From contig NZ_BBZB01000002.1 in assembly GCF_001269985.1 (NCBI RefSeq), positions 682,001-746,000 of the forward strand: a stretch of DNA of 64,000 nt, in the 5' to 3' direction. The first letter of the stretch is position 1. Each line of letters begins with the position of its first letter. The notes beneath the pieces are model-generated. The model was not told where the DNA came from, did not search any database, and was given only the letters and a program-made list of their open reading frames with translations. A program made the translations under genes and the position numbers. Below are positions 46,047 to 52,317 of this stretch, piece after piece. The stretch is from Pseudoalteromonas sp. '520P1 No. 423'. Lineage in GTDB: Bacteria > Pseudomonadota > Gammaproteobacteria > Enterobacterales > Alteromonadaceae.

Positions 46047-46073
46047 AAAAAAAAAGCCCTAAAGGGCTTTTTT
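46047..46073. terminator. Bidirectional terminator shared by the esterase gene and the minus-strand sRNA
   Basis: AGCCCT (46055-46060) pairs with AGGGCT (46063-46068), flanked by nine A (46047-46055) and six T (46068-46073), so it gives a U-tract in both directions: U6 for the esterase transcript and U9 for the sRNA. Confidence 0.9.
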
Positions 46074-46295
46074 GAGAATCCATATCAACCGTCACCGATA
46101 TGAGCAATGTAGCAAGTAATAAGGGGTGAGCATTGATAGCCTAGTAGCAAGGGGCGATTGTTTCCAAGCTATCAATGATCTTACAGTTTAACGTACTGCT
46201 TAACGTTTACAGGGTTCTTTCTGTATCTTAATAAAGCATGGCCTCCTGCCAAAATATCGTCCTTGTGGTCTGAGGTTAGGTACTGCGTTTCGTTG
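46047..46295 (-). ncRNA. Candidate Fur-regulated RyhB-like small RNA
   Basis: On the minus strand a promoter (TTGACT, 17-base spacer, GATAAT) predicts a transcript start near 46295, and the terminator at 46055-46068 with nine T ends it near 46047, giving about 245 nt. The Fur box overlaps the -10. The core ACATTGCTCATAT (46110-46098) matches 12 of 13 bases of ACATTGCTCACAT, the conserved pairing core of E. coli RyhB. A GATAGC/GCTATC stem lies in the middle. No ORF fills the space. Vibrio RyhB is of similar, longer length. The RNA would spare iron by repressing iron-protein mRNAs. Confidence 0.78.
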
Positions 46296-46330
46296 ATAAT
46301 GATTATCAATTAGAATCATACCCAAGTCAA
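46295..46330 (-). promoter_or_regulatory. Promoter and Fur box of the RyhB-like RNA
   Basis: Minus strand: -35 TTGACT (46330-46325), 17-base spacer, -10 GATAAT (46307-46302). The plus-strand sequence GATAATGATTATCAATTAG from 46295 matches 14 of 19 positions of the Fur consensus and overlaps the -10, the expected site for repression by Fe-Fur. Confidence 0.8.
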
Positions 46331-46370
46331 CATCTAAATGATAATTATTTGCAATAAGCGCGATTGATTT

Positions 46371-50184: not shown

Positions 50185-52317
50185 TTATAGCTGCCAACTT
50201 AGCGTTGCAGTGTAATTAACTGGCGCGCCGTAATATCCTTGCGCCCAGTACAAGCTATTTATGTATTTTTCATCTGTTACATTATTTGCGTTAACAGAAA
50301 CTGATACTTTTTCGTTGATATCATATTTGGCCATTAAATTAATAACACTGTAAGCATCTTGATAAGTTACGATTTCTTGTCCTTCGTTTGCATGACCTTC
50401 AGCAACAACACCTTGATCGCGAGAAATATCGTCTTGCCAGCGCATATTCATACCTAAACTTAGACCTGTAATAGATTCAACTTGGTAAGTGGCTGCCATT
50501 TTTAATAAACGACTTGGCGTATAGTCACGAACGACATCATCGCCTGAGATATTAAAATCAGTTAAACCTATGCTTACTTGCAGTCCTGGATATAGCTCTC
50601 CAGCAAGTTCTAATTCAAAACCATCACTGCTAATACCATCTGAAGTAATATATCTATGTTGATCTTTTGGTTTGTCAGCTGTTAAAGGATCTAGTTTGGC
50701 TAAGTTAACTTGCTCTACATCAAAATAGGCAAATGAAGTAATTAACTGACTATCAAAAAACTCACTTTTAAAGCCAATTTCCTTACTTTTGCCTGTGACT
50801 GGTTTTAGGATATCATCATTTATATCGAGTTCTTTTTGAGATAAGAATGTTTCTGTATAGCTGCTGTATGCCATTAATTGTGGTGTGATTTGATATACGG
50901 CGCCTAAATATGGAATAAACTCTTTATCTGATGCATCTTGTACTTTGCTATAGGCTTCGCCTTCAACATGCCAGTCATTATATCGACCACCCGTGATCAC
51001 ATGTAAATCATCAATAACATTAAAGCGCGCAGTAAAGTAAGCCGCTTTTTGTTTTGCAGCAACATCACTGCCTCTTTTACTGTCATTGAATGTCGGTTTT
51101 GTTGCATTACCATCCCAATCATTTAGATCAGGCATTGCAGGAAATCCATTGCCTGTAGTGTAGTCATATAATGATGAATCTATGTAGCTGGTTTTAGCAT
51201 AATTGATACCTGTTACTAACTGGTGTTCACGACCAAACAACTCAAATTCACCACTAATGTAAGCATCAAATAAGTCATGTTTATCGTCTAAGTCATATTC
51301 GCTGCCGTAACCAGTTAAGCCTAGACCGGTTGCTTTATCTGGCGTGCCATAAACATAAAATAATTCAGTGTCTTCATCTGTAGTTTTATGAGAATAAGTA
51401 GCACGTAGTCGCCAATCATCGTTAAAGTAATGACTAAGCTCTAATACAGTATTGTTTTTAGTTACTTGCCAGTTAGACCAATCCGCAGATGTATTAGTTG
51501 AAACATCATAATTTGTTGCACTGCCGTCAGTGTAATAAAGCGGTAAAGCCCCCCAATTATTACCCGTTGCATCATTATCAATAAAACTGTGGCTGATAGA
51601 TAAATATGTATTGTCAGATAAGTCTGCACCAATAAAAGCATAAGCTATGCTCTTATCTTGCTGGTATCTATCTAAGTAAGAGTCTTTTTTTTGTTTTACA
51701 GCAACAAAACGTGCACTAACACTATCTGTTAATGGTGTAGATGCATCTAACTCTATGCGTTGATTATTCCAAGAACCTACTGTTGCATTAACACTTAACT
51801 CGGTATCTAAAGTAGGGCGTTTACGGATAAAATTAATGGTTGCAGATGGGTTACCCACACCTGTCATTAAACCATTTGCACCACGAATAACTTCGATACG
51901 TTCATAAATCGCAGTATCTTCATCTGCGTGATTATTACCTGATGTAAGTGGTAAACCAACACCATCGATTTGAAAGTTAGTAATATCAAAACCACGAGCA
52001 GTATAATAAGTACGATCTGTTTCTATGCGTTCTACATTCACACCAGTAGCGGAATCAAGTGCAGAGTTAATATCTTTTAATTGGAAATCTTGCATTTGTG
52101 CACTAGTGATCACAGATACTGATTGTGGTATTTCGATAATAGATAAATCCAATCGAGAAGCACCGCCGACTTCGTTGGCAGCATAACCTTCAATATAAGT
52201 CCCTTGTACATCTATTTTTTCGATATTTTCATCAGCTTTATCGTTTGCCATACTTGATGTAGCAAATAAAATTGAAGCTGTAATTAAACTTAGGTTATAT
52301 GTTTTCAATTGTTTCAT
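50185..52317 (-). CDS. TonB-dependent siderophore receptor
   Basis: A 710-aa outer-membrane receptor with a signal peptide (cleavage near SSMAND). A TonB-box-like IEKIDVQG starts the mature end, followed by the plug (IPQSVSVITSAQMQDFQLKD, ARGFDITNFQIDGVGLP, YERIEVIRGANGLMTGVGNP) and a 22-strand barrel ending in TATLSWQL. The plug motifs IPQSVSVI and RGANGLMTGVGNPSA are those of ferrisiderophore receptors of the FhuE/FpvA group; no N-terminal signalling domain is present. A Fur-like box lies upstream. It is powered by a TonB system such as TonB2 above. Confidence 0.92.
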   Translation of the reverse strand: MKQLKTYNLSLITASILFATSSMANDKADENIEKIDVQGTYIEGYAANEVGGASRLDLSIIEIPQSVSVITSAQMQDFQLKDINSALDSATGVNVERIETDRTYYTARGFDITNFQIDGVGLPLTSGNNHADEDTAIYERIEVIRGANGLMTGVGNPSATINFIRKRPTLDTELSVNATVGSWNNQRIELDASTPLTDSVSARFVAVKQKKDSYLDRYQQDKSIAYAFIGADLSDNTYLSISHSFIDNDATGNNWGALPLYYTDGSATNYDVSTNTSADWSNWQVTKNNTVLELSHYFNDDWRLRATYSHKTTDEDTELFYVYGTPDKATGLGLTGYGSEYDLDDKHDLFDAYISGEFELFGREHQLVTGINYAKTSYIDSSLYDYTTGNGFPAMPDLNDWDGNATKPTFNDSKRGSDVAAKQKAAYFTARFNVIDDLHVITGGRYNDWHVEGEAYSKVQDASDKEFIPYLGAVYQITPQLMAYSSYTETFLSQKELDINDDILKPVTGKSKEIGFKSEFFDSQLITSFAYFDVEQVNLAKLDPLTADKPKDQHRYITSDGISSDGFELELAGELYPGLQVSIGLTDFNISGDDVVRDYTPSRLLKMAATYQVESITGLSLGMNMRWQDDISRDQGVVAEGHANEGQEIVTYQDAYSVINLMAKYDINEKVSVSVNANNVTDEKYINSLYWAQGYYGAPVNYTATLSWQL

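Follow-up and report, generated by a model that had tools for sequence, protein, structure and literature searches.

We identified in Pseudoalteromonas a family of genes for what is most probably a Fur-repressed, iron-sparing small RNA, present as paralogous copies and predicted to pair with its targets through a hairpin loop together with a stretch that resembles the core of RyhB, a reading to which we give a probability of roughly 0.8. The copy described here lies in the window, as we call the whole 64-kb stretch of DNA that was analysed. Computation gave the gene and its family, the conservation of promoter and Fur box, a covarying structure and conserved, complementary target sites. RyhB is the textbook iron-sparing RNA and Pseudoalteromonas a widespread marine genus, and this family may lie behind the rationing of iron in an entire genus. 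It is missed by the Rfam RyhB model, and the available text of the literature searched, mostly outside subscription papers, describes no comparable RNA for Pseudoalteromonas; the part available of a paper on small RNAs of this genus (PMC9927453) does not mention RyhB.

Table 1. Features of the window copy. Fur boxes are scored as identities out of 19 to GATAATGATAATCATTATC.
Feature	Position	Strand	Remark
Complete feature, promoter to terminator	46330-46047	minus	
-35 element TTGACT	46325..46330	minus	promoter pattern kept in the copies
-10 element GATAAT	46302..46307	minus	17-nt spacer after the -35
Fur box across the -10, CTAATTGATAATCATTATC	46295..46313	minus	15/19; the only site of at least 15/19 on both strands of the window
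Upstream Fur-like box, CTTATTGCAAATAATTATC	46340..46358	minus	13/19; weaker, second box
Small RNA, about 249 nt	46047..46295	minus	predicted; start taken from the -10, end at the last T of the terminator
Long 5' hairpin	46128..46180	minus	CGCCCC in the apical region; covarying across the family
TTACTTGCTACATTGCTCATAT	46098..46119	minus	contains the RyhB-like core; first part is the predicted partner of the sdhC leader
RyhB-like core ACATTGCTCATAT (13-mer)	46110-46098	minus	inside TTACTTGCTACATTGCTCATAT
Hairpin CATATC-GGTGACGGTT-GATATG	46081..46102	minus	proposed seed for acnD, ETF-QO and sodB
UGACGG in the hairpin loop	46094-46089	minus	proposed seed letters
Intrinsic terminator AAAAAAGCCC-TTTA-GGGCTTTTTTTTT	46047..46073	minus	stem followed by nine T (46055-46047)

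The initial annotation had placed here, on the minus strand, a promoter overlapped by a Fur-like box, a RyhB-like core and an intrinsic terminator, with no open reading frame (ORF) between them, and all of these are present where it put them (Table 1). No ORF of at least 80 aa overlaps the feature, and the ATG-started ORFs that end within the predicted RNA are of 13 and 3 aa only. The feature is thus real, the decisive evidence being conservation; what had been overlooked were the second Fur-like box and four other copies in the genome. The gene is flanked by an ankyrin-repeat gene and, on the other side, by a PF00756 esterase gene running towards it. The description of the latter as a possible siderophore esterase is not established (26.5 bits vs. 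an enterochelin esterase cut-off of 222), and the siderophore receptor reported nearby is indeed there, the gene at 50185-52317 scoring above the TonB-siderophore cut-off (281.9 vs. 223.5 bits). This receptor gene has no Fur-like site of at least 15/19 upstream within the window.

In a single sequence the promoter and the terminator prove little, since -35/-10 pairs of such quality are common (4 in 641 bases vs. 3.1 expected in the promoter scan) and the terminator scan listed none at the locus, probably because the T run is taken up by A-T pairing within the stem. Across 58 copies, a loosely defined -35/-10 pattern lies upstream of 56, vs. 8 of 580 shuffles. The best Fur-box score is at least 14/19 for 35 of the 58 copies and for 3 of the 580 shuffles, with a mean best identity of 13.8/19 vs. 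11.0, and many other copies also have, just before the -35, a stretch resembling the upstream Fur-like box. Over the copies with a promoter, the predicted RNA lengths are 150-277 nt. A putative Fur-box promoter, of the kind that belongs to the functional class of RyhB, is present, and the gene and its predicted link to Fur are supported as firmly as sequence alone allows.

A DNA search with a 294-base stretch gave matches in 26 of 41 genomes, namely the source genome, 24 congeneric genomes and one other (G036); the match in G036, like that in the congeneric G016, spans the terminator region only. What had been called the RyhB gene is not single: it is one of five copies in the source genome, three of them near-complete on the second replicon and two shortened on the first. 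The last 69 positions of 47 distinct 3' ends, taken from the 58 copies in 24 genomes, served to build a covariance model (R1), which detected 291 copies, often in tandem, in 107 of the 108 genomes of the genus, with none in 1 genome, one in 11, two in 37, three in 34, four in 21 and five in 4. The sole genome without an R1 match, G016, is a draft of about 180 contigs. Over 394 genomes of the order, matches at E ≤ 1e-6 occur solely in the four congeneric genomes of that sample, and the best score outside the genus is 34 bits. An exact-pattern scan of named genomes returned 115 stretches, and all 80 listed are labelled Pseudoalteromonas.

Two settings are usual among 42 loci of 24 genomes, the vicinity of ylqF (22 loci), where the copies face the 3' end of ylqF and are frequently in tandem, and the side of a DUF6279 gene (15 loci); the setting genes, ylqF (349.6 bits) and DUF6279, were each identified through one member. 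The window copy is in neither setting. Next to one of the copies in G003, a close relative, 244 bases match the start of its upstream neighbour, the ankyrin-repeat gene, at 67%, and the source genome's own ylqF (C1:785362) has no copy adjoining it among the five places found.

Folding of the window RNA gives a weak signal (z = -1.93; 12 of 200 shuffles fold as well). In 33 full-length sequences picked for covariation from the 56 copies with a promoter, compensatory change in the 5' hairpin is strong: 91.4% of the cells are paired, all 11 pairs have changed on both sides (1 of 500 shuffles is as high), and the covariation score of 0.632 is reached by none of 500 shuffles and none of six slid controls. 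Outside the last 70 nt the sequence drifts. The RNA is most constant in the hairpin CATATC-GGTGACGGT-GATATG, whose loop GTGACGG (GUGACGG in the RNA) is found in 60 of 61 copies from 24 genomes; the core ACATTGCTC is kept in 54 of these copies and altered in 7. The 61 were gathered by loop or core, and a copy without both would escape. The RyhB-like 13-mer itself falls within the most conserved block. In the 5' half, ACCC and CGCCCC are nearly invariant, the latter within the long 5' hairpin of the window copy, and these C-rich elements are candidates for pairing with Shine-Dalgarno regions.

Some short copies have lost one of the two elements. L038, on the plus strand of the source genome (C1:334167-334241), is preceded by a promoter and a Fur-like box and has lost the core (ACATAAAAAT) while keeping GGTGACGGT and the terminator; L045 (G003:C146) is also short, with the core lost (ACATAAAAAT) and GGTGACGGT and the terminator kept. 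A copy of about 150 nt on the minus strand of the source genome (L037, C1:2941059-2941133) keeps ACTTTGCTC, its core being intact but for one base, and has lost the loop GTGACG.

Of the pairing elements, the loop GUGACGG has the best support, with matching predicted sites at acnD, ETF-QO and sodB, all genes of iron enzymes. The initial annotation had assigned pairing to the core ATTGCTCA, which is indeed conserved. Its expectation of pairing with the leaders of sodB, sdh and the aconitase family is upheld as far as complementary sites go, chiefly to the loop, and has no genome-wide excess of sites behind it. The genes sodB and sdhC were first examined as preselected RyhB targets. The acnD and ETF-QO genes came from a survey of the source genome and were chosen for their site in it, so that the evidence lies in the presence of the site in relatives with changed flanks; several of the congeneric genomes are close kin, and the site counts are not independent.

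For superoxide dismutase, 25 matches were obtained in 16 congeneric genomes, 21 of them with a locus and 12 of the FELPSLPY (FeSOD) type. In all 12, codons 3-7 read TTT GAA CTA CCG TCA, the sole invariant codon run in the first 50. The invariant codons 5-7 (CTA CCG TCA; 12 of 12 readable copies of this type) are followed by C in 11, and they include rare choices (CTA makes up 10% of the Leu codons and CCG 8.5% of the Pro codons). The resulting CTACCGTCAC, present in 11 of the 12 and lacking its last letter in the other, complements GUGACGGUAG. In the window copy GGUA is replaced by GGUU, and 9 base pairs would form with sodB, one of them a wobble. Among 18 congeneric ETF-QO matches (that of G011 unread) there are 15 main-type leaders, and CCGTCA is their commonest hexamer, in 14 of 15 at -22 to -24 (next-best 9 of 15); it is absent from the leader of G002, from two second-replicon paralogues and from all four outgroup leaders. 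For acnD, the commonest hexamer is CGTCAC, which 13 of 16 congeneric leaders carry between -24 and -32, with CCGTCA in 12; the site is missing in G009, G011 and G002 and in the five outgroups, and no such hexamer is among the commonest of nine leaders of second-type Acn paralogues. The acnD leader of G011 (L389), without a loop site, carries GCAATGTAG, complementary to the other element, CUACAUUGC. The loop-complement sites of ETF-QO and acnD lie 22-32 nt before the start on the coding strand, and in the motif-bearing leaders 20 of 30 (ETF-QO) and 28 of 30 (acnD) flanking columns are less than 0.7 identical.

The complete copies of two genomes, G000 and G003, belong to the GGUU type, and in these genomes AACCGTCAC is found at acnD as well as at ETF-QO, lengthening the pairing by one base; this matching change is only suggestive, because the two genomes are close relatives. 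At sdhC, GGCAAGTAA precedes the GTG start in all 16 main congeneric copies and is complementary to UUACUUGCU, and the pairing adds a second short helix. The stretch GCAAGTAA is in 16 of 16 sdhC leaders of the genus, and in none of five paralogues and none of six outgroup leaders. The sdhC leader is conserved throughout, and its match is therefore weak evidence.

In one 800-kb part of the genome (716 ORFs), three starts have CCGTCAC between -45 and +30 (0.9 expected), those of ETF-QO, AcnD and SodB, whose families were confirmed, and nine have CCGTCA (4.4 expected), including those of NadA and of a protein that, judged by its start, may be FadH-like. A second 800 kb (715 ORFs) has CCGTCA at three starts (4.6 expected), none of an iron enzyme as judged by eye, and CCGTCAC at one (0.8 expected). 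A genome-wide excess of loop sites is absent. Candidate sites at the FadH-like and cytochrome oxidase genes were seen in one genome, and nadA was rejected as a target, as CCGTCA occurs in 1 of 14 congeneric leaders (the 14 covered out of 16 genomes), that of the source genome. The core gives no clear excess either, with 25 helices at gene starts at or below -14 kcal/mol (mean 20 and maximum 34 for 30 shuffled cores) and 11 at or below -16 kcal/mol (shuffled mean 5.8, maximum 12).

An ungapped pairing ranking put AcnD 3rd, ETF-QO 6th, sdhC 30th and sodB 83rd of 716, the sodB site being cut by the +20 limit. Its top was a 169-aa ORF without a Pfam match (L317:14498-15007; C1:3194498 of the source genome), the start of which could form a 17-bp helix with the core if G-U pairs are counted. 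A gapped duplex ranking was set aside, as it favours long imperfect duplexes and had the sdhC start wrong; its ranks out of 716 were 285 for sdhC and 274 for sodB when the window core was used, and 62 for sodB when the genus core was used. A scan for antisense 16-mers gave 149 matches in 16 congeneric genomes, 39 of them the RNA genes, vs. 63 for the reversed control, and 43 vs. 14 in nine outgroup genomes; since the outgroups have an excess too, it is not specific and the scan is uninformative. Two sequences that nearly complement the core, ATGATTAATGTAGCAA and ATGCGTAATGTAGCAA, were each met in five genomes of the genus (among G004, G005, G007, G008, G010 and G015).

How the family relates to RyhB is a separate question. 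The likeness of the 13-mer to the RyhB pairing core ACATTGCTCACAT holds: ACATTGCTCATAT matches it at 12 of 13 positions and occurs once in the window, where 0.13 such matches are expected by chance, vs. 0.00024 in the RNA. The proposed check with the Rfam RyhB model (RF00057; gathering cut-off 55 bits) gave no match to the window copy, and Rfam scans of the feature returned nothing at gathering and 14 weak matches far below the cut-offs, many over the terminator. RF00057 has no match at E ≤ 0.01 in the source genome (best 23.1 bits, elsewhere in the genome) or in the 13 listed genomes of the same family; in 197 genomes of the order it matches 73, 47 of them above the cut-off. Twenty RF00057-matched loci of the order have the core GACATTGCTCACATTGCTTCC, ACTATTGCTCACATTGCTATT or near, and the Pseudoalteromonas RNA has TTGCTACATTGCTCATAT. 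The failure bars filing the RNA as a member of that Rfam family. It does not exclude kinship, since the RyhB of S. oneidensis was likewise missed by BLAST and by the Rfam model and was found by synteny with V. cholerae (PMC2964681).

The gene beside ryhB in Vibrio and Shewanella is VC0106/SO4716, according to the part available of PMC2964681. The main Pseudoalteromonas locus lies near ylqF. No gene neighbourhood shared with RyhB loci from other families came to light, and inspection by eye of 30 ylqF loci in the order gave no convincing RyhB-like RNA, only weak core-like words with poor Fur scores. Loci of GTDB family f21, presumably Vibrio-like, have their Fur-like boxes arranged as in the window copy, the first ahead of the -35 and the second close to the -10. 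The naming of the gene as the RyhB orthologue of its lineage is therefore to be divided: a Fur-controlled RNA of the RyhB type is strongly supported, and orthology is unproven, neither an RF00057 match nor synteny having been found. That the RNA would work like RyhB, and a role of it in iron sparing, are both well supported by these features.

Several other explanations have to be weighed. It could be that the RNA is a true orthologue of the RyhB of Vibrio and Enterobacteria which pairs mainly via ACAUUGCUCA, the hairpin loop being only structural. The core match, the twin Fur-like boxes of the f21 loci, the use of the core stretch in the sdhC pairing and the G011 acnD leader all agree with this. 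We nevertheless find it unlikely, as RF00057 recognises neither the copy nor anything in its genome or in the same-family genomes listed, the ylqF loci of the order gave no convincing counterpart, the core is altered in 7 of 61 copies vs. 1 for the loop, and it is the loop, rather than the core, that the conserved sites of acnD, ETF-QO and sodB match. A functional analogue of separate origin, converged on a RyhB-like stretch, has precedents in PrrF, NrrF and FsrA, Fur-regulated RNAs that arose separately. The restriction of strong R1 matches to the four congeneric genomes among 394 and the lack of a synteny found in common speak for such an origin, against which stand the core match and the twin-box layout, both resembling other RyhB loci of the order, and the drift outside the core that is known for RyhB (S. 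oneidensis, PMC2964681); we regard it as possible, with the odds somewhat against it.

The sites rather than the RNA may also be misread. If the CCGTCA before acnD and ETF-QO were bound by a protein regulator and the loop match were accidental, one would expect what is seen in that only short hexamers are conserved and no genome-wide enrichment exists. This is improbable given that they lie on the coding strand 22-32 nt upstream of the start codon, that the same letters are fixed in codons 5-7 of sodB, and that the sites are absent from five acnD and four ETF-QO outgroup leaders, just as no strong match to the loop-bearing RNA was found outside the genus. Finally, several copies per genome, tandem arrays and other places in the source genome are what a dispersed repeat without RNA function would also produce; two recurrent settings (22 loci at ylqF, 15 at DUF6279), the conserved promoter and Fur box and the compensatory changes make this extremely improbable.

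For the iron-sparing small RNA that we favour, the following mechanism can be proposed. When iron is present, Fur-iron would cover and silence the promoter, and in low iron an RNA of about 249 nt would accumulate. At acnD and ETF-QO its loop GGUGACGGU (GUGACGG) would pair with a CCGUCA(C) site in the leader, and at sodB with the site lying in the first codons. The single-stranded stretch UUACUUGCUACAUUGCUC, with the RyhB-like core, would, on weaker grounds, pair with sdhC and perhaps with others, and pairing of either kind would block translation and promote decay of the mRNA. Hindered ribosome binding and the recruitment of RNase E with Hfq are both established for RyhB, and contact 22-32 nt before the start may act in either way; the Hfq-related feature of the sequence is the U-rich 3' end only. 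Transcription, Fur binding, use of Hfq, repression and decay are what we infer from the sequence. Several copies may give a steeper dose response, and copies that lack core or loop may act on a subset of targets. We lean towards a history in which the targeting element moved from the single-stranded core to the loop GUGACGG, acnD, ETF-QO and sodB acquired or fixed CCGUCA, and the paralogues came to divide the elements between them (the loop at C1:334167, the core at C1:2941059). The new part is this proposed change of pairing element, for which the paralogues without one or the other element are a natural series.

Compared with known systems, the RNA is like the RyhB of Enterobacteria and Vibrio (RF00057) in having a Fur box over the promoter, the core ACATTGCTCA, a terminator with a T run, sodB and sdhC as predicted targets and a length above 200 nt, as in V. 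cholerae, where 214 nt (the part available of PMC8545128) or 215 nt (PMC2964681) is given. It is unlike it in failing the Rfam model, in having up to five copies and no synteny found, and in an extra hairpin, the loop of which, GUGACGG, matches the sodB, acnD and ETF-QO sites in place of the core. With the RyhB of S. oneidensis it shares the Fur control predicted here, the blindness of the Rfam model and a likeness confined to the core region, according to the available text of PMC2964681 and PMC5826389, and tandem copies are also reported in S. amazonensis. That RNA was found by synteny with V. cholerae, and is compared here by description, not by sequence; the title of PMC2964681 has the TCA cycle of Shewanella independent of RyhB, whereas sodB, acnD, ETF-QO and sdhC are predicted targets in Pseudoalteromonas.

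Within the order, 13 loci below the Rfam cut-off (L171-L175 and L190 of GTDB family f2; L176-L181 and L184 of GTDB family f16) contain RyhB-like RNAs that resemble ours in their Fur-like boxes, their ATTGCTCACATTGCT core and, in 8 of the 13, close tandem copies about 230-380 bases apart (L178 has two copies 1,190 bases apart); they differ from it in that the core is canonical and doubled, and GTGACGG is nowhere in the 13. In Pseudomonas aeruginosa, PrrF1 and PrrF2 are tandem, Fur-repressed and iron-sparing. The Pseudoalteromonas RNA, often in tandem and with predicted Fur repression and iron sparing, may be likened to them by description only, and their tandem layout is also mentioned in the available part of PMC2964681.
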